64,000 bases of DNA, taken from the NCBI RefSeq assembly GCF_018873765.1, contig NC_057924.1:14843001-14907000 (forward strand), in the 5' to 3' direction. Positions 2,082-49,909 of this stretch are shown here, in pieces; position 1 is the first letter of the stretch, and each line of letters opens with the position of its first letter. This DNA is from Telopea speciosissima (taxonomy: Eukaryota > Streptophyta > Magnoliopsida > Proteales > Proteaceae). Below the pieces are notes generated by a model. The model was not told the origin of the DNA and did not search any database. It was given only the letters and a program-made list of their open reading frames with translations. The position numbers and the translations under genes were made by a program.

Positions 2082-2137
2082 CCAATATGTTATTGGATTT
2101 TTTTTTTTTTTTTGGTAAACCAATATGTTATTGGATT
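2082..2137 (-). mobile_element. Micro-retroinsertion 1: 20-bp insert with 18-bp target duplication
   Basis: CCAATATGTTATTGGATT at 2082-2099 is repeated exactly at 2120-2137. Between them lies only a T-run followed by GGTAAA (2100-2119). On the minus strand this reads TTTACC plus an A-tail. This is the signature of target-primed reverse transcription that copied only the last few bases and the tail of an element. Five more copies are listed in this window. Confidence 0.85.
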
Positions 2138-2944
2138 GAGCTCTTCTCCAGGGAGCCCGGCACGTTAAGGGTGTCAAAACCAAATCGAAACCGTTTACCG
2201 AAATCAAACCGAACTGTTTAAATAAAAACCGACAAGCTATTTAGTTAAATAGTCTGGTTATGGTTTTAGAAATGACACCGTTTATTTAATCGGTTCGGTT
2301 CGGTTTAGATCGATTAATCCAACGGTTTCAAATAGTGTAATCCGATTAAAATCGATTATAACCAAACCGTCTAACCATTTAAAAACCTCAGTTTTAGGGG
2401 AGTTATTAATTCGTACTGTTATGTACTTCTAAGTCTCTATATTTTGAAGTTCTAACCATGACTTCCGTTGTTCCTATTTCATTCTTAATTTTTATATGTG
2501 TCTTCCTTAATGGTTATGTGCACCGCCAAAGGCCCTCATTTTCTATTAAAAAATGCAGCAGGTAAACAGTGTAAATTAGACTTATTAAATGGTTTAGGAA
2601 ACTATTTAGTAACCGTCTAACCAAAACCGTTTAAAAACCATTTAACCGAAATTGTTTTGAAATTGTTTAACCAAAACCGTTTACCAAACGGTTCAGGTTT
2701 TTATTATGAGACCGTTTAGTTAAATGGTCTGGTTACAGTTTCTACTATCAAGCAGTCAAAATCGAACTGAACTGAACCGTTTAACCGAAACCGGACCGTT
2801 TAACACCCTTACGGCATGCCTAGGGGGCATCTAGCCGTTGGGCTGTGCTGCACACATCCTTAGGTATGCGCCGAGATGTGTGCGGCACAATCCAACCCTT
2901 GGATGCCCCTTGGGCGCTGGGGTCCCTGGAGAGGAGCCGGATGC
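2133..2944. mobile_element. Foldback MITE (family I) split by a nested MULE-type MITE
   Basis: TATGTTATT at 2124-2132 is repeated at 2945-2953, a perfect 9-bp target duplication. The inner ends are inverted copies (GGATTGAGCTCTTCTCCAGG against the complement of CCTGGAGAGGAGCC). The right half contains an inverted 'gtgtgcggcac' hairpin. The same family sits at 5941-6109. The element at 2168-2811 inserted into it later. The 9-bp duplication is typical of Mutator-like transposases. Confidence 0.8.
2168..2811. mobile_element. MULE-type MITE, AGGGTGTC family (nested)
   Basis: It starts AGGGTGTCAAAACC and ends in the complement (AACACCCTTA). The body is rich in AAACCG/CGGTTT words. Flanks CGGCACGTT and CGGCATGCC agree at 6 of 9 positions, a decayed 9-bp duplication. 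Sister copies at 20909-21707 and 22298-22851 have perfect 9-bp duplications, which supports the family call. Confidence 0.7.
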
Positions 2945-3035
2945 TATGTTATTTACCAACACATACACTGGAAAGTAGGCGTAACCAAAATCTCCTAATT
3001 TAAGTAGATTATGTGTAGCAATCCCTCCACAATAG

Positions 3036-3312
3036 AATATCACATTATAGACTATAAGGCATATATGTGTATTCTGTCATAACCATGTTTATAGAAAATT
3101 CTTTTCTATAGACATGGTTATAGAAATCCCTCCACAATACAATATGTTTATCAATCCTTCCACAGTACAATATCACATTATAGACTATAGGGCATGTGTA
3201 TTCTATCATAACCATGTCTATAGAAAATTCCATAGACATAAGTATACAATATCGCATTATAGATTATAGGGCATGTGTATTCTATCATAATCATGTCTAT
3301 AGAAAATTCTTT
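3036..3312. repeat. Diverged tandem repeat, about 65-78 bp unit
   Basis: Three copies (about 3036-3100, 3168-3230, 3246-3310) share 'cattatagactatagggcat', 'tgtattctatcataacca' and 'tgtctatagaaaattc'. The first two copies are separated by an inverted variant of the last word. No coding potential. Confidence 0.65.
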
Positions 3313-5786
3313 TCTAGAGATTCTATAATTCTGATTGGACCAGTAAAAATATTTTTTTTTAAATTTTTATGAACAAGTATTAATAAATTATAATTTTAAA
3401 AATTTAACAAACAATTTACCAAAATACCACCGGGTTTGGATCTCTGTCCAATCAATTACAGACATTCTCTCCCCTATACAACCAAATACTACGGATCTAG
3501 TACACCAATATATAGCCAAGGAGACATCAACTGTTTGTGTGTTAAAATTTGCAATACGTAACTATATCGATAAGGACCCCTCATGTCAAAGGATTGGCCG
3601 CACATTACATACAATAATTTCGTTCCAATTCAATTGACAGTAACACACATGTGAAATTCGTATGGTCCGGTTCAATGTACACACCGTATGTACATTCATG
3701 CTTGTGCCCTGGAATCTCCATTCCTAGGTACACACAGTGCGACGATCATATGCACGGGGTGTCCAATCCCGTCCCTAATCGTGAACAGTTTTAGATTAAA
3801 ACCTAACGACTACCAAGCTCCATTATAAAATCATGCAAATTAATTTATATATTTTATATAAACATGAATTTGATTGACACATTTCCAACGCTAGTTTCTT
3901 AAGACAGGGTAGATAGGGATGGTAGTTTTGCCTGATCACATATTTACATGCCTTTACTCACCTTGCTCAACCTTGATTGGGGGGGGGTATTGGTGAGGAA
4001 ACCTTAACTATTTAGTTATAGAGGAAGCATAAGGTTGGCCATGCCTTACTGCCTAGCTAAGTACGGTACGGGCAAGAAATTTGTACTCTTCCCATTTATC
4101 GGTTTACCAGTTTACCCATTAAAAGGGATATTTAAATAATTTCATGTTATAAAATAAATTTATGTTTCACTAACGCCGGCGAAATGAGCAGCGAGCTGAA
4201 ATCCATGAATCAAATTTGCAGTGGCGTGAACAACAGCGAGAGAGAGAGAGAGAGAGGATTCTCCAGACCTTCTCTTTGCAGAGGTGACTTCCCTTTGCAG
4301 CGGCAATTTCCCTTTGTAGTGGCAACCTTCAAGCTAGCATAAATGACCTCCTTCAAGCTAAACATGGGTTTCATTGGGTTTTGAGGGAACAACTTTTCCT
4401 AAAACTCATCTTCAAATGAAGAAACTGTAAGAAAAAGAGTCTTAGAAGGATCTCAAACAAGAGATCATATAATTTAAATCCATGAAGAGCAAAATCTTAA
4501 ATAAGATTTATTTATCTATAGATTTTTCAATAAAAGTAAAAAAAAACGGACATACCCTTTTGAAGATGTAAATCTAAATTACTTTGTTGAATGAGTTGAA
4601 GAAGAAGACTTGAACCTCTTTTAGTAAATTTTAGAAGAAAGATTGTAGGTGATCACAATTTGATGAAGCCACTAGAATTTTTAAGAACCTCACAGGCAAT
4701 CAGGGTGCTCACCCCAGCTGGACAGGTATACCACAATCTGGTATTTTGAGCTTCCTAAAGATCCCCTTGCCTGTGTGATCTTGAGATATTTATATCTCTA
4801 GGGTGGAGAAGACCAGCCATAAAGTCCATCCCTAAGTGAGATGCTAGCCACCTAATATCCATATCCAGAATGTCTCTTAAGCTTACCTTGACAATTACCA
4901 AAAATGCCCCCAAACAAAAAGGAACCAAAAATACAAAACTGCCCTTACCGAAAAACAAATCAAAATTGGTTTTACAAAGATAGAAAATAAATAATATTTT
5001 TCATATCAATAAATAAAAATAGTTTTCACAAAACCATTTTGACAATAAAGCATTTTAAATTGGCAGTTTGTAGGTACGCGTATACGTCCGTAATTGTCAA
5101 GTCACTGACAATGAAATATTAGTCACTAAGATCAACACTCAACGTACACGAGGTCTTTCCATGGATGGACTCCATTGACGTTATGTGTACTGACCATCAA
5201 GAGACTAGTCCTCATGTCTCCCATAGTCTGAGTAATTTTGACTTGCACCTCTCAAACCTATCACAGTCCAACAATGTGTACATAAACATGTAATACATCA
5301 TGATAGGTGCGGTCAAGTCGAGAACTACAAAGTGGCTCATCAGGATGATCATCCAAAACACCAGTCCACTAACCAAGTAGACCAAAAACCATGGTACCAA
5401 TTTAATTAATTTTACAAGCCACAAAATATAAATGCCACATGACACATGCCACAAAATGAGAATATAGAAATGTCCAATAATATGCAAAAATTACACAAAA
5501 TAAATTTGTATTGGGCCACACAATTCTAACAGAAACATGGGTTCACATGTTTCGTAAAAGGTCATCCCAAGATGACTTTCGCACATGGTTAGTCCTTGGG
5601 CACAGAAATGCTGATCTGTTTTGCCAAATGCTAGATTTATTCTTTTGTTCCCAAATGGAATAAAGAACATAAAAGATCATCTTGGGAGCGTTATCAAATG
5701 GGCACTAAGTTCGGGTATTATATATGTATCTGAACGTTTTGTTCAAAAAAACGTATTTTACCGTATTCAGTCATAAATCCGTTAAA
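3313..5786. other. Gene-free spacer, nothing recognised
   Basis: AT-rich sequence. The short open frames are scattered over both strands without codon bias. It holds a GA microsatellite (about 4232-4257). I see no transposon ends, RNA gene or conserved coding segment. Confidence 0.5.
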
Positions 5787-5795
5787 TAAAATATA

Positions 5796-5931
5796 GGGAG
5801 AAAATTCTCTGTGCCGGGGGCCCAGGCTGCCCCCAGACACATGGGGGTGGGTGCAATGACCACCCTACCCCCTAGTGGTAGGTCCATGTGTCTGGGCGCA
5901 GCCTGCGCTGCAGTATAGAGAACATGAGCCC
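5796..5931. mobile_element. Foldback MITE (family H)
   Basis: TAAAATATA at 5787-5795 is repeated at 5932-5940 (9-bp target duplication). The element folds back: 'tctgtgccgggggcccagg' and 'acacatggg' pair with 'ccatgtgtctgggcgcagcc' and 'tagagaac'. Related copies lie at 19202-19338 and about 37146-37258. It abuts another family at 5941, using the same 9 bases. Confidence 0.75.
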
Positions 5932-5940
5932 TAAAATATA

Positions 5941-6109
5941 ATATTTAGCTCGTCTCCAAGGAGGCGTACGCCCAGGGTGCTACCAGGGGGCATCCAGAGG
6001 TTGAGATGTGCCGCACACATCTAGGCGCATGCCTAGGGATGTGTGCGGCACAGCCCAACGGCTGACAACGCCCTGTGCGTTCCTTGCTCCCTGGAGACGA
6101 TCCTGATCC
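5941..6109. mobile_element. Foldback MITE (family I)
   Basis: It is bounded by TAAAATATA at 5932-5940 and again at 6110-6118. Its ends are inverted (CTCGTCTCCAAGGAG against CTCCCTGGAGACGA), with an internal hairpin around 'gtgccgcacacatct' and 'atgtgtgcggcac'. It is the same family as 2133-2944. Confidence 0.75.
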
Positions 6110-6122
6110 TAAAATATATATG

Positions 6123-6446
6123 GGTAAATTATACGTCACCCCCTGGTTTTCAAACGAAACTCAGATCACCCCTTGGTTTTTGAAAAAACTCAAATCACCC
6201 TCTCTACACTAATGATGTTAGTTTGATGTTTGTTGTTGGTGTGAAAGGACTATTTTACCCTTGTACTAAAACATTAGAATAAAATTTACAATACTACCCT
6301 TCCTTCATCTTCAACATTGGTCAAGGATAGTTTAGGGATTTAAATTTATTTAACTCACTGACATCATCACTTGCAGCATAAAACTAACTAGGGACTAATT
6401 TGTTATATTGGGGTCTAAACCAGTGTACTAAAAAATTCGAAACTCT
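6123..6446. other. Spacer with a fragment of an unclassified TIR-element end
   Basis: About 75 bp from 6123 (taaattatacgtcacccc and following) recur at 50464-50537 in the same orientation. The wording resembles the long terminal repeats of the neighbouring MULE-like elements, but no partner end was found. Nothing else recognised. Confidence 0.4.
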
Positions 6447-6455
6447 TAAAATTAA

Positions 6456-7073
6456 GGAAAATTTTCAACGAACCCCCCTCAATTGGACCGTGGAATTAAT
6501 GCCACCCCATTAAGTGCCTATATATCAATTTGGGCCCAAAAACAAACGGGGTTAACTGTGTGTAATGGAAATGACTAAACTACCCTCTACACTAAAATAT
6601 TAAAAAACAAATGATAAAATAGAAAAAAGGGTTGGGGTTTTCAAGGGTGTCTTTTGGACCATTGGATCTGAACAAATAAATCTTAAGTGTTGATTTGGAA
6701 TAAAACATAAATTTGGGAATCCACTCTTCCTCTCGAAACCCCATTCCCTCCCTGACCTGCATTTTGCTCCGGCAGCTTTCGTCCCCGACTCCATGCCTCT
6801 GTCGTATTTACCCTCCAATAAATCAGTAGCCATTTGTTTGTTTGGGTATAAATAATAAAAAAAAATCTACGAAGGCAGTCATGGCTGCCATTAAGGGACA
6901 GAGAGACTGGCAATGGTGGCTGCCGGGGTGAGGTCGTCCTCCCTCCTGTGACCTGTGATAGCTTTAATAAAAAAAAAACCTGCAGAAACGGACAGCAAGG
7001 TGATTGGTTAAAGGGCAGCGACAGAGATGGTCGCCGGAGTGAATATCTCTCTCCGGTAACCTGTAACTGTTTA

Positions 7074-7104
<31 letters not shown>

Positions 7105-7892
7105 CTGGGCAGCCAGGCTGCCATAACCGTGATGCTCTCATGGGCCAGCCCCAGTCGGACTTCCCCTTTACCAGTTTTGTTGCGGTTGCCGGCCTCTCGG
7201 GTAACTTGCAGATTTAAAGAGAAAAACAAATTCTGCAAGTCACAGGGTGGGTTAGGTAACCGAATTTGGAAGAATGGGTATTTTTTTGGGTTGTTTTTCC
7301 GGCAAATGGACACCGACCGAAGTTTCATTGTTGTTTGCCGTGGTTTTTGAAAACCGAAGCACCGTCGGGTGAAGCCGCAGTTGGCGGCGATTTAACTCCA
7401 AAGTACCCAGGCACAAGTGTTGATTCCCATCTTTCCATTTCTTCTATGTTGAATCAAACCCTAAACGATTTTAAGATGAATGTTGAAGAAAAAAAATTAG
7501 AGAAATCAGAAGAGAGCAGAGGGAAACCCTTCTTCTTGGTTCGATTCAATTTCTTCTTCCTTTCGATCAAAGGCGAGCATGAGTCCTTGGGAAATCCATT
7601 TGAATTTTTTTTACCTTAATCTGAATCCATTTGCAGGTTTGGGAAGATGAGTTGCAGGTTTGGGGGAAACGATTTGAGGAAGATAGAGGGCATTTTGGTC
7701 AGATGACTTGGTTCACTTGTTTTAAGGAGAAGGGCAAAATAATCTTTTAAAAAAATCTAATCTGCTCATATCACTAATTAACGGTTCAAAGACCTTTTCC
7801 GTTAGTTTTTAAGCCCATATTGATATATTGAGACTTAATGGGATGACATTAATTCCACGGTCCAACGGAGGGGTTGTCGCCGACAATTTTCC
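6456..7892. mobile_element. TIR (Mutator-like) element, 1.44 kb, with internal tandem repeats
   Basis: Long inverted termini of about 100 bp: the left side has GGACCGTGGAATTAATG, ATTAAGT, TATATCAAT and GGGC, and the right end carries the complement in order. Flanking 9-mers TAAAATTAA (6447-6455) and TAAAATGGG (7893-7901) match at 6 of 9. The interior (6840-7330) has three diverged blocks, each with 'ctc.ggtaacctg' followed by 'agatttaaa' and an A-run. It has GC-richer patches and several ORFs that I cannot assign. It may carry captured host sequence. Confidence 0.65.
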
Positions 7893-10358: not shown

Positions 10359-10648
10359 GCTCAGCCTAGCTGGACCCCTAATCCTATTGCTCTTTTCCTT
10401 CTTTAGGGGTCTCCTCCAACGTATTCCAATCCAACAGTCCGACTTCGATTGGGATATCGTCTCACGTCTGGCTGGGATTTATTCTCCAGAAAACCGAACC
10501 CGATACGCCTGTTAGTGCTAAAGCCTTTCTAGAGAAGATACCTTCGCTTCCACTGCTAGGGTTTATATACTGATATGATCGTTTCCTTGTAATTTCTGTT
10601 TTTAGAAATCTGAACAAGAGCCGAAGCAGCCGCACCATCTCGCTAGCA

Positions 10649-12346
10649 ATGGTAGGATTTGAGATTGGCACGGTTCCGTTCAACCCAGATGGCTGGGGTC
10701 CCCCGGAGACGCCCGCAGCACTCCTCGCCAACCACCCAAGCAACGTCCCCTTTGCTCCATTCTCTCGCTCTGAGAAGCTCGGCCGCATTGCAGATTGGAC
10801 TCGCAACTACAACAACCCCTCTCGCGGCAACAAAAACCCCTCCGACGCTGTCTTTGATTTCACCCTAGACGACTCCTCCGCCGCCCTTGCCGCCGATGAC
10901 GATTCCAATTTTCGCCTTGTCGATGGCAAACCGCCACAGCGCCCAAGGTTCGGTCCCAAGTGGCGTTTCCAACAGCAACGCCAACTCCCTCAGCGCCGTG
11001 ACGAAGAGGTCGAAGCCCGCAAGCGCGAGGCCGAGAAGGAACGTGCTCGCCGTGACCGTCTCTACAACCTTAACCGCTCTGGCGCTAATGTCCAACGCCG
11101 TGAAGCTGCTGTCTTCAAGTCCTCTGTCGATATCCAACCCGAATGGACTATGCTCGAGCAGATTCCCTTCTCTACTTTCTCTAAGCTCTCCTTCTCTGTC
11201 CCTGAACCCGAAGATCTCCTCTTCTGCGGTGCTCTCGAGTTCTACGACCGAACCTACGACCGTGTCAATCCAAAGAACGAGAAACGCTTGGAGCGCTTTA
11301 AGAATCGCAACTTCTTCAAGATTACCACCACCGACGATCCCATCATCCGTCGTCTCGCCAATGAGGATAAAGCTACTGTCTTTGCGACCGAGTCTATTCT
11401 TTCTACTCTTATGTGTGCTCCCAGATCGGTTTATTCTTGGGATATTGTGATTCAGCGTGTGGGGAACAAGTTGTTCTTTGATAAGCGTGATGGCTCGCAA
11501 CTTGATCTGTTGTCTGTTAACGAGACGTCGCAGGAGCCCTTGCCGGAAGCTAAGGAAGATATCAATTCTGCATATGCCTTGAGTGTCGAAGCCGCTTATA
11601 TTAACCAGAATTTCTCGCAGCAGGTTTTGGTTAGGGATGGTAATAAAGTTGCTTTTGAGGAGCCTAATCCTTTTGCTGCTGAAGGAGAAGAGGTTGCTTC
11701 TGTTGCTTATCGTTACCGGCGGTGGAAGCTTGATGATGATATGTACCTTGTTGCACGGTGTGAGCTTCAGGGTGCCACAGATGCGAAAGGGCAACAGGCG
11801 TTCTTGACCTTGAATGCCCTTAATGAATTTGATCCCAAGTATTCGGGAGTTGACTGGAGGCAGAAACTGGAAACGCAAAGAGGTGCGGTGTTGGCTACAG
11901 AGCTGAAGAACAATGCGAACAAGCTGGCAAAGTGGACTGCTCAAGCACTGTTGGCAAGTGCAGACATGATGAAGGTGGGTTATGTTTCAAGAGTTCATCC
12001 TCGAGATCACTATAACCATGTTATCTTAGCTGTGGTTGGGTATAAGCCGAGGGAGTTTGCCACACAGATTAATCTGAACACTTCTAACATGTGGGGAATT
12101 GTCAAGTCCATTGTCGATTTGTGCATGAAATTGGATGAGGGAAAATATGTTCTAGTGAAGGACCCATCGAAGCCGCAAGTTAGGATTTATGAGGTTCCTG
12201 CAGATGCATTTGAAAATGATTACGAGGAAGAGCCATTGCCTGAGGAGGAACAGGTGCAGCCGCTGGCGGAGGAGGATGCTAATGGTGGGGAGCCTTTGGC
12301 ATCTGCTAACAATGTGGAGGAGGAGAAGATTGAAGCCGAAGTCTGA
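10649..12346 (+). CDS. TIF3D1: Eukaryotic translation initiation factor 3 subunit D (eIF3d)
   Basis: Single uninterrupted ORF of 565 aa. The start ATG (10649) opens the conserved N-terminus VGFEIGTVPFNPDGWGPPE. Residues about 110-143 form a basic/charged segment (QLPQRRDEEVEARKREAEK). The central and C-terminal part (about 165-520) is the eIF3d fold with recognisable blocks PEDLLFCGALEFYDRTYDRV, ATESILSTLMCAPRSVYSWD and KVGYVSRVHPRDHYNHVIL. The tail (about 525-565) is acidic, as in other eIF3d proteins. In the eIF3 complex this subunit sits at the mRNA entry side of the 40S ribosome and has cap-binding ability in animals (family knowledge). Length is close to other plant copies as I recall them. 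The 5'UTR may contain an intron (a T-rich tract ending ttttag near 10605). A long ORF on the opposite strand here is a shadow of this gene. Confidence 0.97.
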   Translation: MVGFEIGTVPFNPDGWGPPETPAALLANHPSNVPFAPFSRSEKLGRIADWTRNYNNPSRGNKNPSDAVFDFTLDDSSAALAADDDSNFRLVDGKPPQRPRFGPKWRFQQQRQLPQRRDEEVEARKREAEKERARRDRLYNLNRSGANVQRREAAVFKSSVDIQPEWTMLEQIPFSTFSKLSFSVPEPEDLLFCGALEFYDRTYDRVNPKNEKRLERFKNRNFFKITTTDDPIIRRLANEDKATVFATESILSTLMCAPRSVYSWDIVIQRVGNKLFFDKRDGSQLDLLSVNETSQEPLPEAKEDINSAYALSVEAAYINQNFSQQVLVRDGNKVAFEEPNPFAAEGEEVASVAYRYRRWKLDDDMYLVARCELQGATDAKGQQAFLTLNALNEFDPKYSGVDWRQKLETQRGAVLATELKNNANKLAKWTAQALLASADMMKVGYVSRVHPRDHYNHVILAVVGYKPREFATQINLNTSNMWGIVKSIVDLCMKLDEGKYVLVKDPSKPQVRIYEVPADAFENDYEEEPLPEEEQVQPLAEEDANGGEPLASANNVEEEKIEAEV

Positions 12347-17262: not shown

Positions 17263-17665
17263 GACTCTATCCTGATTTGAATAAGCAAAGGCATCACAGT
17301 GTCAGTTGAGAATAGTAACTACTCTATTGAATACTGCATGCTGCTTATCCAGTTCTTCCATGATCTTCTAGCCACATTTTAAACTGTGTTGATTCCCATG
17401 TTGGGAGACCAGGTTGGGGGGGGGGGGGGGGGAATGTTTACCTCCTGTCTTTATCATGCATGTGACTCTATCCTGATTTGAATAAGCAAAGGCATCACAC
17501 AGTCCGTTGAGAATAGTAACTACTCTATTGAATACTGCATGCTGCTTATCCAGTTCTTCCATGATCTTCTAACCACATTTTAAACTGTGTTGATTCCCAT
17601 GTTGGGAGACCAGGCTTGGGGGGGGGGGGAATGTTTACCTCCTGTCTTTATCATGCATGTATTGC
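17263..17665 (+). repeat. 201-bp tandem duplication with unequal G-tracts
   Basis: The sequence from 'gactctatcctgatttgaat' (17263) repeats from 17464 with only a few differences. The G homopolymer near the end of each unit is 17 long in copy 1 (17416-17432) and 12 long in copy 2 (17618-17629). No coding potential. Confidence 0.85.
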
Positions 17666-25763: not shown

Positions 25764-28700
25764 ATGGGTGTGGAGGTAGTGGCAGATGATTTCACACAGG
25801 CACCTGTGAAGGACGGAGCCAACGCGGAACATGGTATATTGAATGAGAAAGAGAGCATAGTACCCAACCAAGAGGCAGGGGGGCTAGACGAACCAATCAT
25901 ATTTGGTTCGCATGGAACACATGCGCCTGTTAAAGGAGAGGTCGATTCCGCTCTGGATGACAAAAACTTCCCCAAGGATGCTGTTGATGAATGGCCTGCG
26001 CCGAAGCAAATCCATTACTTCTATTTTGTCAAGTATCGGGCTTATGATGACCCAAAGCTGAAAGCCAAACTTGATCAGGCCGACAAGGAGGTTCAGAAAA
26101 AGAGTCAAGCTCGTTTCCAGATTATTGAAGCGTTGAAAGCCAAGAAGGTACGTAATGTGTGCTCAATTTTGCTGGTCTTTTCCTTTTATCTTTAGTTGGA
26201 AAAATTGGATAATGAGGCGTTGATTTTACTATGTCTATCAGAATGCATGCAAATTAAAGACGATGTTTGTTAAATAATTTGACGTCTTAAAGTACGCTCA
26301 GAAATGAAATATTTTTCTAGAATGACCCAGCTAGCTGGGTGCCTAAATTTTTATTCTCTTTCCTTTTGTGCAGTCGGATCGAGCACAGGTGATAGCTCAG
26401 TTGAAGCCTTTAACTGTTGAGGGCAAGCGGTACAGAGTGATGATGGATGAGAAGAGGAAGGAAATGGAACCTTTGAATCAGGCTTTGGGTAAGCTCCGTG
26501 GTGCAAACAGTGCTAACCGAGAGAGGGGAGAGAGGGGTGTTGGTATATGTTCATCTGAGGCAGAGCTTAATGCACTTGTAAGCGTATACTTAAATTATTG
26601 AAATCACCATTTAATCTTACTCCCTATTTTAGGCTATATTAATTACTTATTTAACTCCATTGGAATTGTCATTACAGATTCAGAGCTTGAATTATCAGAT
26701 TCAACATGAGAGCCTCACTTTGGCCGAGGAGAAACAAATTATAAGGGAAATTAAACAGCTTGAGGGGACTAGGGAGAAAGTTATTGCTAATGCTGCTATG
26801 AAGGCAAAGATTGAGGATTCTATGGGACAGAAGGAGGCTATTCAAGACCAGGTCAAAGTAAGAATTTTTTTTTAAAATTTATTTATTTTACTTATATATT
26901 TTATTTTTTTTATCTTTCGTAACTTTCAATAATTATCGTTTCTATCACGTGATAAGTCTAAGCTTAAATTTCACCTATGGTTTCATGCATTATAATTTGA
27001 TTGTAGCTCATTGGTGTTGATTTGGACGGAGCAAGGAAAGAGCAACAAGCAGTTAGGGCACAAATCAAGAATTTAGAGGATGACCTGAAAGCAATTGACA
27101 ATGAGATTAGTTCATTGCAAGAAGAACTGAATACTGTGAATCAGAGAAGGGATAAAGCATATGAAACCCTTGTTGAACTGAGAAAACAGCGTGATGAAGG
27201 GGTACGAAGACTCCAGACTTCCAGTTTCATGCTTTCGCACTTTAACTTGTTTGGTGTAATATTGCATTGTTTTGTTTTTCTTTGTTAGGTTATGTACGAT
27301 TTAATCTGTGAATCATGTACAATAGATAAATTGACGAATTGTTTTTTCTTCCTGAACTTTTGCTTAGCTTTTGAATTAGTGCTCTATGTTGTACAAAAAG
27401 TTGTTGAACTCCTTGGTGAGTTTAACTTGACTCTCAGTTATTTAACTTAATTTTTAAGTTTCTTTTTAACATGTTGTCATTTCATATTTACTTATGATAA
27501 CCTAGTAGGGTTACATGGTAAAAGATGAAGAGGTAATTTATTTTTTGAAATGCTAACTCTTGTACCTTAAATATGTTAACAATATGGACATTATGCTTAC
27601 ATTGAAATGAAAGACTTAGATATTTCCATAGCAGAAATAATGGAATTAATGATTATATTATGTTACTTTAACAATTACGTACATTGAAATGAAAGACCTA
27701 TATATTTACACCCAAAAAAAAATTAATGGAATTAATGATTATAATGTATTACTTTAACAATGATTAGTGATTATTGCGAATATGATTTGTTGTAACTATA
27801 ATTAATACATACTACTATTTATCGTAAAATGTAATTAGTAATCATAATTGATGGAAAATAATGAAATTGAATACGATTATTGCACAGAGATTGTAGAGCC
27901 CAATTAATGCAGACAGAGTAAGTAGCCTGCATCAATTTCCCTGTGGATCAGAAAAAAAAAGTTCTTAAATTTTGAAGTGAGGCAGTAACACTTCATCTGT
28001 GAGGCTCTTCCATGGCTCATATTTGTAGAACTCTTTGGCTTCTGTGTAGAGATTGTGAAATCAGTAACACACTTAACATGGCATTCTTCCTTATTCTGGC
28101 TAAAATGATGAGGTTATGAAGAGACCTTTAATGGGCTTCTTATTCTTGCTGCTCCAATAATTCTAGTACTCTGAGAATGTAATCTTGAAGGTTTCCAGAG
28201 TTATCTTCCACCTTGCCTTTCTCTGTACTGAAGAAAATTTGGTTGATTCTTTACTTGTCGAGGAATTGTAGAATGTCTACCATTGACCAAGAAAACCTTT
28301 GGCTCTGGTACCTAGTCAGGCAGAGATCAAGGAGCCTGCATCACCAGTTTACATATACCCACCATTTGATTCTGCAACTTGAATCAATGAGGTTGCAGTC
28401 TTTCATTCGTACATTCTTCCCCTCACATGGACTTGCTTAAACATTATAAGATTACATTTACACATTATAACATATGTACTGCATTATATAATTTATGTAA
28501 TTAATACTAATAATTGCATTATAATATACTTTCTTAAATTGATAACCCTTGTATAGAATTCATGGTATTGTTATCAACAAATGTGAATAAATATCATGGG
28601 AAAATGTTTCCAGCAATAGCAGTGCAGGATGGATTCCAGCACCACTGGCTATTTCTGCTACATGGATTTAGAGACATTATGAACTAAATTGGATTAACAT

Positions 28701-31700
28701 TGAATGTTTTTGTGAGATAGAGAGAGGTGTAGCACATATTTTTTATTTTATTTTGTATTTTTTTTGGAGTAAAATAATTATGTATTGAGAGTGAACATCT
28801 ATTTTTATTTCTTTTGGTATGGCAGACTTCTTGAATAAAGGCATGGGTTTGAGGGGGGCACAAAGCCCTCGGGAAGCTTAAAGGAAGAAGAGCACGTAGT
28901 ATCTGTTACACATTTGTCTCTAGTATAATTTTTAACTTGGTATTTGTTCAATGAAAACATTTTGTAACATTCTGAATTTTGATGAAATTGCTGTAGAAAT
29001 CATACTTGTTAAGGTGTCTACTAGGTGGCCCTAGGTGACTTTTTGGTGTCGCCTTGGTTTTTTTTCCCTAGAGGGCTGACCTTGGTGCAACGGTAAGGTT
29101 GCTCTTCAATTCTGTGGAAACAGCCACTCCATGATGCGGGGGTAAGGCTGCATACATTATGACCCCTCCCCAGACCCCGCAATGGCGGGAGCCTCATGCA
29201 CTGGGTACACCCTTGATTTTTTTGCCACCGCCTTGGATCATGCCTTGTCGCCATGACAACTATGGTATAAATTATTACCATTCAATAATTATAACAAAGT
29301 GAATATCATAAAGAAAAAGATTCTATGATTCCTGATAGGCATTTCATATTCCATATGGAGCATGCTAATAGATGTAAAGAGTTGCCTTCCGAGGGTTGCA
29401 ATGGAGGATTAAGAAATTCATGTTGGAGTTGATGGTTGTCCTCATGAAATCCTAGGGCTCAATGGTCAGGATTTTGTGAGAGTGGTCAATACAGTGAACA
29501 GTAAAGAAGTTTACCAGGGTTTAGTTGATGTACCATACACATAAAGAGGATTTAGGTGAAGGTTAACTTTGATGGGTATTCTTTTGTGTAAATGTAGTTC
29601 AAAGGGAGTTGGGGTTTGGAGCTTATTGTAGCAAATAGTGATATTTTAGAGGTATTCCTGTCCATTTGGCGCTGTTTAGTTAATTCAGTATAATAGGATT
29701 GGCTCTTTTGCAACTTTGATAGGCTGTACAAATCCATTCACTCTGGGCACATGTTGGATGATGGCTCTTTTAGTGCTTGCTATCAATGTTGTATTGGGAG
29801 GGCAAGCATTGAGGCTAACTGAGATCCTCCTTTAAATTGGAGACTTTATACTCTAACCACCATGTATCCCTTTCTCATACCATCAAATATGCAGGAATGA
29901 ATCCTTTTCATAAGTTTTTATATTATCATTAAATAAGGCGATACGTTGCACATGGAGAGTGTTTCTTGAAGATTAACTACAATTCGGGAGATTGGTGATG
30001 AATGAAATAAATACTGGGGAAAAGAGCTATTAAATGGGGGGGGGGGGGGAGAAAAGGGGACAAGGTTTTCAGGTGGCTCATCCTTATTGTCCTTATTCCT
30101 TCAGTATACTTGTTTCCATGGCTAACTTGAGTTATATCACTAGTGTTGGGTTTTTAATTTTCTATTTGAGGAGTGACAAATGTGTTCCACTTATTGAACA
30201 GGGTTCTATGGTCGGTTCGTGACCCCTAATGCCGAAGGCGTCCTTAGGGTGATCCCGTAGGAATGTGTGAAGTGAGTGTCTTTAGCCTAAAGATGACGGT
30301 CAGCCCTGCAAGAGAGGAATATCTTTGTCATTGATGTGGAGAGGTTGCTAGGCATCAAGGTTATAGGTCTCGGTTTTGCCTTTGGTTTCACCCTTGGTTT
30401 CTCCAGGCCACGAAACCGAGTTCTGCCGAGATCTCGGCGAGTTGGTGTATTTTTTCCAATCTTGACTCGGTGGTGTATTTCGGTGGCCATATGGCCAAGA
30501 TAGGTCCTGAAACTTGACATTCACCATATTTTAGGCCTTCTAAATTTAATGGAAACATTTTTTATAAATTCAAACCCAAAATGATACTTTGACTTTGGAC
30601 CGTAGGTTGGTAGTCTACAACGTAGGCGAGTTCTACCCAAGGCTATTCCATACTATATTTAGAACACATAGAATTAAAGTAGAGGTGTAAAAAACTTAGT
30701 TAAGCATTAGGAATTAAAGAATATCAAGCTCATGACAAGTCCTACCATTCAGCTATTTTTTTTTTTTTTTTACCTTAAACTGTTTTTGAGATGCAATGCA
30801 GCTTCAATCTTGAATCTCCAAGCTTTAATCTTCAGTTGATGTGAGATTTGCCAAAAAAAAGTACCAAAACCCTCACTTGGAGGTGTTTTTCCTTCACAAC
30901 AGAGCGAGAGAGGTGAGATTTCGAGTTGAGGTCGAAATCTCGGCGAGACAATGCCTTTTTATAGCCTTGGTTTGGTCTGTTTGACTCGAGATCGAGATAT
31001 AACCTGAGATCTTGGTGAGATACTGAGATCTTGCACAAATCCCGTATCGCCTACCGTCTCGTCTCGTCTCGTCTCTCGTCTCGTCTCGAGACTACACGAA
31101 CTGAAATTTTTACGAGATCTCACCGAGATCTTGTACTATGCTAGACATTTGGCTGATATTCTCCATTTGCACAAAAGATACTTAAAATCTATAGCCATAC
31201 AAAATATGAAGCTCTGTCCTTACAATATGAAGTGGCAGATCACATGATTATGATTGTCCATTAAATTTTTATTTATTGATGCTTTTTGATTAGTGTGCCT
31301 TACCATCTAATTTTGGTGATCATTACTTTATTTGGAACGAATGGTAACTTACAGCTGTGTTTGGTTGTATTCCTGGGAAGATGAGCGGGAAGGGGTTTCC
31401 GTTGCAGTGTTGTGTGGTTGCACTTGGAAAGACAAGGGAAAAGTGATGAAGGGGTTTGCTTCCTGCCTCTTTTTGTGAAGATGTTGTGGAAAGCTCCACA
31501 TTTTTTTTTCGGAACAGATTTCCCTTCCTAAATTTCTAGAAGAGAAACCAATATCTATTTAAATTATGTTAGTTTAGCAGCTCATGTTGCCTTGGGATTT
31601 AATAGATAGGGTGATACCATTTCGTAGTATGTGAGGTATTAATGTGTACAGTGTTTTTTTTTTTTTGGGGGTAAATTAATGTGTACAGTGTTAGTGATAA

Positions 31701-42209: not shown

Positions 42210-43957
42210 ATGGCGGGTTTTGCTTCAATGAAGAATGTCTTCTTCTCTGTTCTTCAGCTTTCAGTAGTACTACTCTTGTTGAGTAGTGTTGCTGAGTCAT
42301 TGAACGATTTTCCGAGCCACTCTCCTACTACCCTCCCCCGACCAGTTTACCCTCCAAGTGTCCTTCCTCCGGTGAAGCCTTCAAATCTATCTCCTACCAA
42401 CCCTCCTACTCTCCCCCCACAAGTTTACCCTCCAAGTGTCCGTCCTCCAGGGAAGCCTTCAAATCTGTCTCCTACCAACCCTCCTACTCTCTCCACTCCA
42501 GTTCAACCTCCCACTGTCCTTCCTCCAGTGACGCCTCCAAGAACTTTATCTCCAACCAACCCTCCTACTCTCCCCCCTCCAGTTCAACCTCCCACTGTCC
42601 TTCCTCCAGTGAAGCCTCCAAGAACTTTATCTCCAACCAACCATCCTACTCTCCCTCTTCCAGTTCAGACACCAAGTTTCTCTCCAGTCTACCTTCCTCC
42701 AGTTCATACTCCAACTCTTCCTTCTCTGGTTGGATTCCGGTTCTTCTTCCCACATGGGTACCCTTCAAGTCACTCTCCTAGCCACCTTCCTACACTCCCT
42801 CCTCCAGTTCACAGTCCAAGTCTCTCACCAGCTCAACCTCCAAGCTTCCCACCTGATAATGCTCCCGAAGCCCCGCCCGCCAAGTATGTGGTTGTGGAAG
42901 GGGTTGTTTATTGCAAGTCATGCGACAGTGATACCCTTTCAGATCCAGTCGTTGGTTTGTCTCCTCCTCTTTTCCTCTATCTTTTCACTTAATTTCACAA
43001 TTACTACGCTCTCATTCAGTTTAATTTGGCATGAGAAGTATAACGTTTCACTATTTGTCACATGGCAATACATGGGTTAGTCCATGTGATTGTGGACCAG
43101 ACATTCATCGCAAAATTATCCTCTCAAGTTCTCTGTCCGATACAGTTTCCCAATGCCTCTAATAAGAGGGGGGTGGACCCCACCCAGGCAGTGAGGTGTT
43201 CATTTCCACCCCTTATGAGAGGAATCGGATGAACTGTACCGGGCAGGGAACTAAGAGGATAAAGATCAGACATTCATTTCCTTGGTACAATTTCAGCTTA
43301 AAATGAGTAGAGGAAATAGCTATAATTACATTATCGGTTTGAATTAGAGTTTGAACAACTTTTCTTATTTAATTTGGACTAAAATTTGATTGATGAGATG
43401 CATGTGGGTTCTTCTATCACATGGACTAACCCATGTACTACAAAGTGGCAAATAGTGAACTGTTATACTTCACTAGGCATAATGACGCCTAGAAAGACCC
43501 ATATATTCAATTACCCACATATTCTCTCATTTTCTTTCTTCTTCTTCTAAATTTTTTTGCGTTTTGTTGAATTTTTTTGCGTTTTGTTGAATATATGATC
43601 ATCAAAAAAATATATATTTAAATGACAGTAAACTTGTTATGGGCTTTGGTTGCAGGTGCGAAAGTAAAGCTAGGGTGCAACATCACCAAGCTTTTAACGA
43701 TCGAAGAAGAAAAGACTACAGACGAGACTGGTTGCTTCCTCTTTGAAGCATCAAAGAAAATCACCATCTCCTCGGTTTCATACTGTAAGGTGTTCTTGGT
43801 TTCATCACCTTACCCTAAGTGCCAGAAGAAATCTAAACTAAACTGTGGAGACACTGGAGCCACCTTGAAGTACGAGGTCAATCCCAAGAAAGCTTTAGCC
43901 TCGGACACTTACGATGTCTACACTCCTGGGCCTCTTGCCTTCGAGTCCAATTGTTGA
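42210..43957 (+). CDS. Secreted proline-rich protein with Ole e 1 domain (2 exons)
   Basis: Exons 42210-42954 and 43656-43957 (phase 1; GTTTGT donor, TTGCAG acceptor) give 348 aa. Residues 1-29 are a signal peptide (FFSVLQLSVVLLLLSSVAES). Residues 42-147 are four tandem 26-27 aa repeats of the type LPPPVQPPTVLPPVKPPRTL plus SPTNPPT, followed by more proline-rich text to about 224. The C-terminal Ole e 1-type domain begins VVVEGVVYCKSCDSDTL and contains AKVKLGC, TDETGCFLFEA, CKVFLVSSP and LKYEV. Cysteines occur in YCKSC, GC, GC, YCK, KC and NC. The protein is expected in the cell wall. The family includes pollen Ole e 1 and pistil/root extensin-like proteins; tissue and function cannot be read from sequence. 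Tandem paralogue at 51158-52539. The intron contains two nested MITEs. Confidence 0.9.
43034..43472. mobile_element. MITE in the Ole e 1 gene intron, about 55-bp terminal inverted repeats
   Basis: Left arm (gagaagtataacgtttcact, then catgggttagtccatgtgat) pairs with right arm (atcacatggactaacccatg, then agtgaactgttatacttca). The element at 43108-43267 is nested in it. Target duplication uncertain. Confidence 0.7.
43108..43267. mobile_element. Foldback MITE (family C)
   Basis: AGACATTCA at 43099-43107 is repeated at 43268-43276. The ends 'gcaaaattatcctctcaag' and the complement of 'ctaagaggataaagatc' are inverted. The interior holds 'aataagaggggggtggaccc' and 'tttccaccccttatgagagg'. Same family as 47591-47777 and 51630-51881. 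Confidence 0.8.
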
Positions 43958-44086: not shown

Positions 44087-44092
44087 AATAAA
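44087..44092 (+). promoter_or_regulatory. AATAAA poly(A) signal of the proline-rich Ole e 1 gene
   Basis: AATAAA 130 bp after the stop codon. The micro-retroinsertion at 44099-44121 duplicated most of it (a second AATAAA ends at 44126). Confidence 0.55.
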
Positions 44093-44132
44093 GTGATTCT
44101 TTACCAAAAAAAAATAAATAAATAAAGTGATT
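44088..44132 (+). mobile_element. Micro-retroinsertion 3: 23-bp insert with 11-bp target duplication
   Basis: ATAAAGTGATT at 44088-44098 is repeated at 44122-44132. The insert is CTTTACC followed by A9 and a TAAATAA end (44099-44121). Plus-strand orientation. Confidence 0.75.
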
Positions 44133-44719: not shown

Positions 44720-44764
44720 TTTAGTTGGATTGTCTTTACCCAAAAAAAAATTTAGTTGGATTGT
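44720..44764 (+). mobile_element. Micro-retroinsertion 4: 17-bp insert with 14-bp target duplication
   Basis: TTTAGTTGGATTGT at 44720-44733 is repeated exactly at 44751-44764. The insert is CTTTACCC plus A9 (44734-44750). Confidence 0.85.
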
Positions 44765-45235: not shown

Positions 45236-45753
45236 ATAGGAGCAGATATCATTTCATAGGAGGGATTGGGGGAAGGAGAGAAATAGACACAACAAGGTGC
45301 TAGCGTATACTACGTAGTCTGATAGCATTTTCTCCCAAAAATTTATTTTTAAGAAACTTGAGCAAAATGTTTGTCTCGATTTATTGAAAAATAAACATTA
45401 ATTCTTGAATTAATCTGAATCTGATTTTTTTTTTCATGACCCATTTCTTTTCTTATTGAATTTTCAATCTTTTAAATATGTAAAATTAATTAATATAGGA
45501 GCAGATATCATTTCATAGGAGGGATTGGGGGAAGGAGAGAAATAGACACAACAAGGTGCTAGCGTATACTACGTAGTCTGATAGCATTCTCTCCCAAAAA
45601 TTTATTTTTAAGAAACTTGAGCAAAATGTTTGTCCCGATTTATTGAAAAATAAACATTAATTCTTGAATTAATCTGAATCTGATTTTTTTTTTCATGACC
45701 CATTTCTTTTCTTATTGAAATTTCAATCTTTTAAATATGTAAAATTAATTAAT
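45236..45753 (+). repeat. 259-bp tandem duplication, nearly identical
   Basis: The unit from 'ataggagcagatatcatttc' to 'aaaattaattaat' occurs twice with a constant offset of 259 and only a few substitutions (for example 'gtctcg' against 'gtcccg'). No gene. Confidence 0.95.
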
Positions 45754-45817
45754 TGTATTTGTTTCCTTCCAAATTTAACACTCTCTCCCTAGGACATATT
45801 TAGCGCCTTGTCTAGCT

Positions 45818-45973
45818 GGAAATGGATTTTCTCCAGCCGTGGTGCTAGCCCCGCTAAACGCTAGCAAAAACAGAGGTGGGCTGGTCTGAAATGACCAACT
45901 CCCCCTATTTTTGGGGTGGTTTCAGAGCGCTGGACCCTCCAGCTCCGGCCACGGCTGGAGGAGAGCCAGATCC
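45818..45973. mobile_element. Foldback MITE (family B)
   Basis: The flanks TGTCTAGCT (45809-45817) and TGTCTACCT (45974-45982) match at 8 of 9. The ends GGAAATGGATTTTCTCCAGC and the complement of GCTGGAGGAGAGCCAGATCC are inverted. Confidence 0.85.
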
Positions 45974-46187
45974 TGTCTACCTTATTAGATTGGCTTTAGC
46001 CTTATGAATTAAGGTGTACTATCTACATCATTGTTGTACAGCTGAGATATATTGTTTACTATACTTTAAAGAGAGCAATCATGGTTTGAGATAACGGAAT
46101 CAGATTGGGACTTGCCAGATTCACACCCGATCTCGATTCTACCTGATTTTTATAACTCTCTTTTGAATCGTTGGATTCATGTTTAAT

Positions 46188-47152
46188 ACTTTTTTTTTTT
46201 GGGTAGAAATAATGAGAAACTTTATTAAGATCAACGTGAATTACACATGGATGAAGTTGAAAATAATCCTTGGATCTATGGATCGAAATTTGGTCAGATT
46301 GTTGTGCACGTTACCAACAACTCTTTCCTCGTCAGGTAGTCAATTACTATTAATCTCCCTTGGAACATATGTAAACGAACAAGAAGTAAAATAAGACGAC
46401 AAATGGAGAATATCATCCACTACAGGTTTTACTTCTAGTGGCGGGTAACATAACCCACGTTGGAGACAAGACACCAAATCTCTATGATCTTTCTCTACGT
46501 ACCACCAAATGTTTATATCCTTCAGAAATAACTTCTAACAATGCCAAACGAATAGACATGGCTTCACCGACAAGCACCGATTTGAAACAACATGGCATAG
46601 AAACAGTATAAAGAGAAGCCCTTGCAGAATTGCGAAATAATTCAAGTGTTATTGGTGAAGCCTGATTTTCGTTCCAAATATGCCGTTGGGGCTTTAGAGG
46701 GCCATTTCAGCCTCGAAACGATCTCGGATTGTCGAAAAGTGGTGTACATTCTGCCGGAAGTGGGGTGTTGTGTTGGGCTAGTCGAGATCTTCAAAACGGT
46801 ATATTTTGGAATATACGTAATGTTTTGGTCCGACCCTGTCTGGTTTGGCAATTTCTGGGTCCAGGGGTATTCTTGTACTTCTTCGGGTTAAGGCTTCTCC
46901 ATATAATGTTCTTATCTCTGTATGAGAGATTTTGTAACATTTCCAAAAGATAGTGAAATTTGATCTATTGCTCGGCCGTGGACGTAGCTTCCCATCTTGG
47001 GGGTGAACCACGTAAATCTCTAGTGTTGTGTGTTGTGTGCTTTCTCTGTTTCTCGTTTTCTTCTGCAAATCATCATTCTGGGCATTGTTTTCTTAACACC
47101 AAGACCATCGTTGGCTGCTCCTTGACAAAAGCTAGCATCACAAATCACTCTT
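46188..47152 (-). mobile_element. 5'-truncated LINE (RNase H end) carrying a nested solo LTR
   Basis: A T-run at 46190-46200 is followed by GGGTAGAAATAATGAG (A-tail and 3' end on the minus strand). The flanks attcatgtttaat at 46175-46187 and 47153-47165 are a 13-bp target duplication, extending to 17 of 18 with one mismatch. The minus strand at about 46625-46490 reads ASLYTVSMPCCFKSVLVGEA followed by MSIRLALLEVISEG, the RNase H-like domain found at the C-terminus of some plant LINE polyproteins. Stops and frameshifts follow. The solo LTR at 46647-47098 inserted into it. Confidence 0.75.
46647..47098 (+). mobile_element. Solo LTR nested in the LINE
   Basis: TGTTATTGGTGAAGCC at the left and TTCTTAACA at the right. 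The flanks tcaag (46642-46646) and ccaag (47099-47103) are a 5-bp duplication with one mismatch. It matches 646-1117 in parts, including 'cttgggggtgaaccacgtaa'. Confidence 0.8.
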
Positions 47153-47292
47153 ATTCATGTTTAATGCTTTGATCTTCCTTTTCTTAGTTTGTAAAATAAT
47201 AAAAATTTAATAAAACGACAACACGAAAAGGTCGCTTCTGCGACATAAAAGATTAAAAGTGGAGGATTTGGGAGCAATTTTTTTATCCATCT

Positions 47293-47337
47293 AAGAGCCT
47301 TTAGCATTCTTACCAAAAAAAACAAAGAGCCTTTAGC
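47293..47337 (+). mobile_element. Micro-retroinsertion 5: 19-bp insert with 13-bp target duplication
   Basis: AAGAGCCTTTAGC at 47293-47305 is repeated at 47325-47337. The insert is ATTCTTACC, A8 and CA (47306-47324). Confidence 0.85.
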
Positions 47338-47590
47338 GATGGGTTTTTGAAAACCACTGCCAATAAAGGTATCCCATACCGTTTAAGGCCCCCCAAGGCC
47401 ACTCATATGGAATCCACTCCAATGGGTCTCACGATATTTGTATAAGGACATGATCTGTGCTCCCAATAAAGGAGTCGTGTTCCTTTGCACGTACGTGCAG
47501 GTACACATATATGTGAGAGGCAATCACCTGTTCTATTTTTACTATTTACAAGAGGAGGAGGGGTATTTATGAAAACAAGATAAACATGTG

Positions 47591-47777
47591 GGACTTAACT
47601 CCTCTCAGGTTCCCTGCCCGGTCAGGTTTGTAGGTTCCTCTCATAGGAGGCCTGAAATGACGACCTCACCCCCTGCCCAAACACACTAACCGGGTGGGGT
47701 GAGGTCGTCATTTCTGCCCTCCCTTGAGAGGAACTTACGAACCTGACCGGACAGGGAACCTGAGAGGAGAAAAATTC
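47591..47777. mobile_element. Foldback MITE (family C)
   Basis: AAACATGTG at 47582-47590 is repeated exactly at 47778-47786. Long arms: 'ctcctctcaggttccctgcc' and 'cggtcaggttt' pair with 'aacctgaccggacagggaac' and 'ctgagaggag'; the central arms 'ctgaaatgacgacctcaccc' and 'ggggtgaggtcgtcatttc' also pair. Confidence 0.9.
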
Positions 47778-47929
47778 AAACATGTGACTAGCTTTGAGAT
47801 GTACATTCATGTACGTGTAGATGATCCATTCTCCCAATAGAGAGCCTCTAACTGTGGTTTTCTAGAAACTGTTGCCAATAAGATCCTTTTAGCGGAATCG
47901 CTTTTCTATAGATATATAAAAAACTTAAG

Positions 47930-48110
47930 GAAAAAGAACACCACCTGGTCATATAGCGCTCGCCACCCCCTGCACCAAACATAGGGGCACGCAAAATGAC
48001 TGCCACACCCTTGATCATTTCCATCTTTCCAGGGGTACAACAGTCATTACGCATGCCCCTATCAGAAGGGAGGCGTGCGCTGCGCAACCGCCTGGTGGTG
48101 TTCTTATCAA
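47930..48110. mobile_element. Foldback MITE (family G), 3' end truncated
   Basis: Starts 'aaggaaaaagaacaccacc' and ends 'gcctggtggtgttctta'. The interior 'gcacgcaaaatgactgccac' matches the copy at 10031-10205. Confidence 0.65.
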
Positions 48111-48294
48111 TTTGATTTTGGTCTAGCCTGGTATATACAAAAAATCAAGAGGGGAAAAAAAAAATCCGATTGAAAGTAAACGAACTAATCGTTTGACACC
48201 TCTAATTTGGGTTATATGATAAAACTTATATTATGTTGAGGGATGATATAATCATTTCAGCCATTGGAATGGTATAGATGCGCCTAGGGATGTC

Positions 48295-48709
48295 AATCAA
48301 TTAGTTCGATCTGGTTCTGGTTTGCCTAAACTGATTTCAGTCGGTATTAGGCCTAACCAAAACCAAATCATTAAGACAAAGTTCGGTTTCGATTGGTTTC
48401 AATCCGGTTCAATTTAGTTTTTTATTAGATTGACTTTACAAACTCTTAGTTCGGCGATTTTTCATATATATATACATTACAAATAATCGAGAGACATGGT
48501 TTTTATATAATGTTTTTCAGTTTTTATCGGGTTTTTAGGTTTCTGATTTTAGTTGATTCAATCGGTCTGTCTGGTCTGGTTCAGTTTTTTAGTGGTTTTA
48601 TAAAAGTCCAAACCAAAACCAGATCGATAAACAATAAAGATTCGATTAGATCCAATCCGATTTGTCCCAGTGGTTTTCGATCTGTTTGGGCTGAAAATTG
48701 ACACCCCTA
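48295..48709. mobile_element. hAT-like MITE, TAGGGATGTCAAT ends
   Basis: TAGGGATGTCAATC at the left and the complement (ATTGACACCCCTA) at the right. Body of 'ggtttcgattggtttcaatc'-type words. Flanking 8-mers gatgcgcc and gatataac match poorly (4 of 8), so the duplication has decayed. Confidence 0.55.
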
Positions 48710-48825
48710 GATATAACTTTTTGGAATAGTTGCACACCAAATTTTCTGGGACATATCGATCCTATGACCTACATTTTATTGGACAGTTTTCAATTTATCT
48801 CCACCTTTATTTCTTTTTTTTGGAA

Positions 48826-48970
48826 AAAAATCTTTGTTCGGGAGTGTGGCCTATGCCAGCACTCCCATGAGTCTATCTCTGTCCTTATGTGAAAAGACAC
48901 TTCTACCCCCTTATTTTAAGGAGGAGAGATAGACACATGGGAGTGTTGGCGTAGACCACACTCCTGGACA
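48826..48970. mobile_element. Foldback element (family E)
   Basis: The arms 'cgggagtgtggcctatgcca' with 'gcactcccatgagtctatct' pair with 'agatagacacatgggagtgt' and 'tggcgtagaccacactcctg'. The loop is about 45 bp. Confidence 0.75.
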
Positions 48971-49075
48971 TAAAACTATTTCCTTTTTTTTTTTTTTTTT
49001 TTAAATGATTAACCAGTTATCAAAGTTTAAACTACACTCCTAGGGACTTAGACGAAGAAAGAGTCGCAGTGGGAT

Positions 49076-49320
49076 CATGGTTCTAAGTATTGGTGTCGGA
49101 TCACCCGTATCGGGCGATCCATATCGATTTTACATATTGTCGATACCGTATTAGTGATACAGTACGGACAAGGGATAACTTGATTATTAAAAAGAAAAAC
49201 TATTTTTAAAAGAGGATCGAGAGCAAATTTGTCTGATAGATCCTTATTGATATTGATCCGATACTATATCGATTTCCGAGTTAATCGATACCTATTCCGA
49301 TACCATGCACTAAAACCATG
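49076..49320. mobile_element. hAT-like MITE, GATAC family
   Basis: The ends CATGGTTCTAAG and CTAAAACCATG are inverted. The flanks AGTGGGAT (49068-49075) and AGTGGGAC (49321-49328) match at 7 of 8. The body is rich in 'cgatac' and 'gatatcgat'-like words. Confidence 0.75.
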
Positions 49321-49328
49321 AGTGGGAC

Positions 49329-49856
49329 AGCCTATTTTTATCTACAAGTGAAGAGGGAGTGTTTCCCGGAAGTTGGGTTAAATTGTCAAAGCAATTCTTG
49401 GTTACTAAAAGATTAGTATATATAGTTGATGCGGTTTGGGATTTTGGGTTTAAAAAAGAGTAGGACATAAAGTCAAAATAGCCTACAAACTACGTAACAT
49501 AGCATCACATGTCATTAATATCCAACCATTGATTAGTTTTTAGTTTGACTGACTCATTATCTAAATCGGTTGTTGGTATATGCTCATCTCACATGCCTTT
49601 CTCTTCAAGTGGAAGTAGAAATTGGGAGTCAGGTTCACATTCATGTAAGTGGATTTCGTCTGAATGGTTGTGAGTCGTTTTTAAACATTGAACGTGAACC
49701 CAACTCGAAGCTGGTTGATTGTACCAAGAAACACAGAATAGAAATTGATTGATTTCCACCCTTCAAAAAAAAAAAAAAAAATTGAAGTATTCACATTTAA
49801 GGGAATTCAATTAACATATTTAATATTTTAAAAATTATGTTTAGAAAATCTAAGCA
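49329..49856. other. Gene-free spacer
   Basis: No feature beyond an A-run near 49767-49783; the short ORF at about 49570 has no recognisable domain. Confidence 0.4.
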
Positions 49857-49909
49857 CAAACGGTGTTAAGATTATTTTTTTTTTTGGGTAAATCAAACGG
49901 TGTTAAGAT
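49857..49909 (-). mobile_element. Micro-retroinsertion 6: 21-bp insert with 16-bp target duplication
   Basis: CAAACGGTGTTAAGAT at 49857-49872 is repeated exactly at 49894-49909. The insert (49873-49893) is TA, T11, GGGTAAAT; on the minus strand ATTTACCC plus an A-tail. Confidence 0.85.

Follow-up and report, generated by a model that had tools for sequence, protein, structure and literature searches.

A window of 64,000 nucleotides from the genome of Telopea speciosissima (Proteaceae; RefSeq assembly GCF_018873765.1, contig NC_057924.1, positions 14,843,001 to 14,907,000) contains six inserts of only 17 to 22 bp, each flanked by direct repeats and made of a few bases followed by an A-tail. 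These micro-inserts are very probably extreme 5′-truncated copies of L1-type plant long interspersed nuclear elements (LINEs) that arose by target-primed reverse transcription, a reading to which we assign a probability of about 0.93. The evidence consists of the way the inserts are built, numbers in excess of chance, agreement with the 3′ ends of LINEs, a single empty site and the narrow range of insert lengths. In this process, the LINE endonuclease would nick the target at a site reading approximately YY|AA in the sense orientation (Y represents a pyrimidine), the T-rich 3′ end would prime on the poly(A) of the LINE RNA, the reverse transcriptase would stop once it had copied the A-tail plus the final 4-9 nt of the 3′ untranslated region (UTR), and the short cDNA would be joined across the staggered nick, leaving a duplication of about 10-19 bp. 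The nick and the priming are suggested by the composition of the target sites. For the cause of the sharp stop we can offer a guess: the enzyme may abort early, or it may meet an obstacle close to the stop codon of open reading frame 2 (ORF2), which in most of the copies read is 16-19 nt before the poly(A).

All six sites possess exact direct repeats, which we consider to be target-site duplications (TSDs), and share one order in the sense orientation: the first TSD copy, 6-9 nt with ACC to ACCCCC at the end, the A-tail and the second TSD copy, which the poly(A) tail directly adjoins (Table 1). In other clear cases beyond the window the TSDs measure about 10-19 bp. A preliminary description of this DNA had reported the six structures and attributed them to LINE-type target-primed reverse transcription. 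The structures are present where it placed them, its repeat lengths hold for five sites (the third has 12 bp, not 11), and the origin it proposed gains support from the LINE-end motif, one paralogous empty site and a genome-wide excess of the motif.

A rival interpretation is that the repeats are chance similarities or products of local slippage at poly-A tracts. Among the 102 A/T runs of at least 7 in the window (both strands), seven are flanked by exact repeats of 11 bp or longer, namely the six micro-inserts and one tandem repeat at 43578. When the downstream flanks were permuted 1000 times, the count was 0 in 848 permutations, 1 in 139 and 2 in 13, and never exceeded 2. The repeats also depend on the motif: where TACC(C) precedes the run, 6 of 9 runs carry one, compared with 1 of the 93 remaining runs (Fisher p 4e-7). 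With the loci fetched from the genome (L numbers) added to the window (348.3 kb), the proportions are 11/33 and 7/483 (Fisher p 3e-10); the target runs of loci fetched by the TACC-A pattern were excluded from this count, and one LINE end is in it twice (L065 = L089). Two of the seven positives without TACC are micro-inserts with an interrupted tail (L018 and L075), four look tandem or local (L005, L012, L024 at 1789 and window 43578), and one is a possible 31-nt insert with an imperfect 21-bp duplication (L097, minus strand, 1331). In addition, a motif-free search for exact TSDs of at least 11 bp at 480 A-runs in 320.8 kb yielded 17 matches against 0.28 expected, 13 of them micro-inserts and 4 tandem- or local-looking. 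Slippage does leave traces at some A-runs, as the tandem-like repeats at window 43578, L005, L012, L024 (1789) and L027 indicate, but the permutation and cross-pair controls, the motif dependence over 348 kb and the empty site at L078 make chance or slippage hardly credible as an explanation of the class. The preliminary description had named repeats no commoner here than at other poly-T tracts as grounds for giving up its idea, and the ratios of 6/9 and 1/93 point the other way. Its suggestion that many poly-T tracts are insertions applies to 6 of the 102 tracts in the window, most of the tracts having no duplication. The window also holds a weaker case on the minus strand, of a type without TACC, and three tandem duplications, one of them diverged (Table 1).

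The motif leads to L1-type LINEs. At locus L003, a LINE copy of 693 bp is flanked by an exact TSD of 14 bp; the copy ends in TTTCTCTTTACC-A11 and encodes the RNase H-like terminus of ORF2 of a plant LINE. A 23-mer derived from it, with up to 3 mismatches, occurs at 57 places in the genome compared with 0 for the reversed control. Thirty of these places were fetched (L059-L088), and in 23 of them an A-run is present at the distance expected, L003 standing for L059 because the two are one place. Before the poly(A), 11 of the 23 LINE ends read CTTTACC(C) (L003, L062, L063, L065 and L072), GATTTACC (L074 and L087), TTCTTACC (L085 and L086) or TTTCTACC (L081 and L082). Thus, the tail motif, which the preliminary description had proposed to compare with LINE 3′ ends of the same genome, does occur at L1-type LINE ends. 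Micro-inserts end in a similar variety of sequences, including ATTCTTACC and ATTTACCC in the window, TCTACCC (L073) and CTACC (L078), a spread that resembles that of the LINE 3′ ends, at only 5-9 nt of match per insert. A Pfam scan of six open frames of LINE loci was positive for four (zf-RVT and RVT_3 in L085 and L073, RVT_3 in L082, zf-RVT in L081) and gave no match for two. Judged by these ORF2 C-terminal domains and the poly(A) tail, the source of the micro-inserts is L1-type plant LINEs. Longer TSD-flanked copies are also present, with lengths of 425 bp (L077), 693 bp (L003), 952 bp (in the window) and 1583 bp (L063); L003 was found by motif bait and L063 by the LINE pattern. Another LINE-like element in the window, with a DUF4283 open frame, is listed in Table 1.

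Several other parents were considered. A repeat family ending in GGGGGGTACGTGTAC-TTTACCC (L013, L026, L034, L040 and others), an end that likewise stands before A-runs, shares CTTTACCC-A with some micro-inserts, which might then be its cut-down ends. This is very improbable. Eight of 21 loci carry an inverted copy of the end within 1.5 kb upstream, and a search of 1.5 kb gave no TSD at any of the 21 that surpassed the cross-pair control. The ends TTCTTACC and TTTCTACC are met at LINEs and not at this family, and the family accounts for only 3 of 38 pattern matches. It was the first parent considered, under the end GGGGGGTACGTGTACTTTACCC, and was dropped because of the inverted ends, the lack of a TSD within 1.5 kb and the long open frames of its upstream parts, which look gene-like by eye; its loci (L013, L026, L034 and L040-L058) resemble Mutator-like elements (MULEs), also by eye. 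Terminal inverted repeats, a MULE-like trait seen at 8 of 21 loci of this look-alike family, are not found in the six inserts, which are too short for them. A tRNA CCA end was rejected because the number of C residues varies from 2 to 5, and a telomere-like repeat because TTTACCC differs from TTTAGGG. Two candidate inserts were likewise set aside: the 217-bp repeat pair of L004 is part of a tandem duplication, and the insert of about 150 bp plus A11 at L076 (877-1070, 14-bp TSD, ending in AATTAACC) reads by eye as a tRNA-derived short interspersed nuclear element (SINE) rather than a LINE. An RNA polymerase III promoter head, a SINE trait, is absent from the six inserts, which hold only 6-9 nt besides the A-tail.

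One locus reveals the site before insertion. The micro-insert of L078 (TSD AATTGTGATGCTACTT, insert CTACC-A) sits within a LINE copy, and the LINE paralog L082 aligns across this site without the insert and without one TSD copy; L069 reads ACTAAAATTAACTGTGATGCTACTTGGAATAG through the same site, the insert being absent. The 3′ end of L082 itself is TTCTACC-A13. With regard to target choice, A occupies TSD positions 1 and 2 in 28/36 and 26/36 sites, respectively, and Y precedes the TSD in 25/36, so YY|AA is the usual reading of the target across the 36 sites, with the A-tail possibly inflating A at the TSD start. The L1 endonuclease prefers YY|AA-like targets.

The narrow templated length is the new element of the finding. 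In 16 micro-inserts (the 13 exact motif-free cases plus L061, L090 and L097, which have one TSD mismatch and were kept after their ACC ends had been seen), the templated part measures 4-9 nt with a median of 7, a value based on lengths read off by eye with L024 taken as 5. In 4 of the 16, bases are interposed between ACC and the A-run (AATAATT in L018, AAACAC in L061, AT in L075 and AAAAATT in L090), which we read as an interrupted tail. Cases of 9-11 nt found by pattern (L017, L023, L035 and L090) speak against a clean gap in length, as do the possible inserts of 31 nt in L097 and 42 nt at window 22545. In its extended form, AATTTCTCTTTACC-A9, the 3′ end of the CTTTACC subfamily occurs at 5 sites genome-wide compared with 791 for CTTTACC-A9. 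This ratio exaggerates the difference, because exact matches to a long word are lost sooner through decay and the upstream sequence is not the same in other subfamilies.

Under target-primed reverse transcription of LINE RNA, the enzyme would pass the poly(A) and about seven bases and stop when the first base of the stop codon was still some ten bases away. An early abort, an obstacle over the stop codon and poly(A) signal, and an RNA reduced to its tail each fit this end point, so that the word "abortive" in the preliminary description, whose stop after about seven bases agrees with the position found here, describes one of several possible causes. In the tail-only case, LINE RNA would have decayed from its 5′ side up to the footprint of the reverse transcriptase bound to it, and the remnant of about 7 nt plus poly(A) would then be copied fully. 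A protein footprint would explain the end point of 4-9 nt in the 16 cases without premature termination, and there is no consensus fold near the LINE end to stop the enzyme; the existence of longer truncated TSD-flanked LINEs (952 bp in the window, 693 bp in L003, 1583 bp in L063 and 425 bp in L077) argues against such decay, which we regard as rather unlikely. Slightly less likely still is a roadblock over the poly(A) signal and the stop codon of ORF2, such as a ribosome in the act of terminating. It would be consistent with the in-frame stop lying 16-19 nt before the poly(A) in 15/23 LINE copies (7/23 have an earlier stop in the ORF2 frame and L003 has none) and with CC and CCC ends keeping an approximately equal number of bases upstream of ACC in a tally of small sample size. 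Against it, L1 reverse transcription is usually placed in the nucleus, and an AATAAA-like signal overlaps the stop, so that the spacing may merely reflect polyadenylation. The LINE ORF2 stop (L060-L088 and L003) often overlaps such an AATAAA/AATGAA-like signal, and the 3′ UTR is very short and even. The idea that a common RNA stem halts the enzyme was rejected, as alifold detected no consensus structure across 23 LINE ends; single LINE-end sequences fold at -3 to -15 kcal/mol.

Genome-wide exact-pattern counts were made in the 822.9-Mb assembly (1287 contigs) with reversed patterns as the control; such counts miss decayed copies and take in longer LINE ends and other repeats. All patterns were in excess: 791 vs 50 for CTTTACC-A9, 303 vs 8 for CTTTACCC-A9, 8768 vs 1072 for YTACC-A9 and 717 vs 142 for TACCCC-A9. 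Sorting of 38 CTTTACC(C)-A9 loci by script gave 19 micro-inserts, reduced to 18 once L027 (a tandem repeat) was excluded, together with 3 LINE ends (L003, L016 and L030) and 3 ends of the other family (L013, L026 and L034). The density of strict cases, 13 in 320.8 kb with 6 supplied by the window, is about one per 25 kb. Extrapolation from these non-random loci would give, very roughly, some tens of thousands of micro-copies per genome.

A number of observations weigh against the LINE interpretation. Within the window and the fetched loci, a spanning paralog was found for only 1 of 34 sites tested (L078, which is outside the six window sites), the A-tail partly inflates the base composition at the TSD start, and the sampled loci are non-random. 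Of the 38 CTTTACC(C)-A9 loci, 13 lack both a TSD and a LINE, and another 3 belong to the ends of an inverted-repeat family that is unrelated. Moreover, 12 of the 23 LINE ends are unlike the four motifs (e.g., TTTCTATC, TTTCACC and TTGACC), and the typing of the source LINEs covers their ORF2 C-terminal domains only. Finally, two possible inserts exceed the narrow length class: 31 nt plus A10 with the imperfect duplication in L097, and 42 nt plus A8 at window 22545 (minus strand), with a repeat matching at 15/16 bases in a repetitive spot.

Table 1. Micro-inserts and other features of the window (positions count from its first letter)
Feature	Position	Strand	Direct repeat or TSD	Insert length (bp)	Insert or content
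Micro-insert 1	2082..2137	-	2082-2099 + 2120-2137, 18 bp, sense AATCCAATAACATATTGG	20	2100-2119, TTTACC-A14 (A16 if AA common to TSD counted)
Micro-insert 2	31638..31692	-	31638-31655 + 31675-31692, 18 bp	19	31656-31674, TTACCCCC-A11
Micro-insert 3	44087..44132	+	44087-44098 + 44121-44132, 12 bp, AATAAAGTGATT	22	CTTTACC-A9TAAATA
Micro-insert 4	44720..44764	+	44720-44733 + 44751-44764, 14 bp	17	CTTTACCC-A9
Micro-insert 5	47293..47337	+	47293-47305 + 47325-47337, 13 bp	19	ATTCTTACC-A8CA; compare TTCTTACC ends of LINEs L085/L086
Micro-insert 6	49857..49909	-	49857-49872 + 49894-49909, 16 bp	21	ATTTACCC-A11TA; compare GATTTACC ends of LINEs L074/L087
5′-truncated LINE	46175..47165	-	47153-47165 + 46175-46187, 13 bp, ATTAAACATGAAT	about 952	Ends TTTCTACCC-A11; 46485-46616 matches RNase H-like end of LINE ORF2
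LINE-like element	58807-56778	-	No TSD of at least 10 exact bases within 7 kb		DUF4283 open frame 58079-58807; possible 3′ end CAATCC then A19 (56796-56778)
Weaker case, non-TACC type	7593-7633	-	10 bp		CAGATTAAGGT-A8TT
Diverged tandem duplication, ~86 bp	27598-27761				Second unit alone has TATATTTACACCC-A9, first reads GATATTTCCATAGCAGAAA
Tandem duplication, 259 bp	45236-45753				98% matches
Tandem duplication, 201 bp	17263-17660				95% matches
Long open frame	10574-12343	+			Matches Pfam eIF-3_zeta (eIF3 subunit 7/d), whole profile

SINEs and processed pseudogenes have the same architecture of TSD and A-tail, whereas the micro-inserts lack a promoter head or mRNA body and hold only the last bases of a LINE. 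In human, L1 insertions that consist of hardly more than poly(A) have been published, and truncation is described there as variable (PMC4498532). Human 5′-truncated L1 copies are alike in having a TSD and an A-tail with the 5′ part lost and almost no element left; the plant inserts differ in forming a recurrent narrow class that ends 4-9 nt before the poly(A) and is commoner in our samples than longer TACC-end copies. On this comparison, the general kind is already known and the plant inserts are a variant of it. Plant L1-clade LINEs end in poly(A), and a conserved 3′ hairpin is described for one monocot lineage (PMC3747384); the source elements here share the ORF2 C-terminal domains and the poly(A) tail, whereas, in contrast to that lineage, no consensus fold was detected in the 23 ends. 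A literature search on short or abortive LINE insertions met neither plant micro-copies nor a class that recurs across a genome with a single narrow end point, although such a negative is only weak evidence that none has been described.

A bolder proposal, to which we would give somewhat less than even odds, is that reverse transcription of plant LINEs passes through a defined checkpoint early on: after the poly(A) and about 7 bases the enzyme would usually give up or run into a fixed obstacle beside the ORF2 stop codon, so that most integrations leave only about 20 bp. If so, integrations would be many times the number that repeat annotation counts, and inserts this short escape homology-based annotation. 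If micro-copies outnumber recognizable LINEs, current views of how often plant LINEs insert and how the host controls them would be wrong, and retrotransposition would be the origin of many short indels next to A/T tracts. TSD-flanked inserts could serve as low-homoplasy markers. In addition, the sharp end point would let genome sequence reveal the early steps of target-primed reverse transcription, because thousands of natural end points could be tallied against subfamily 3′ ends.

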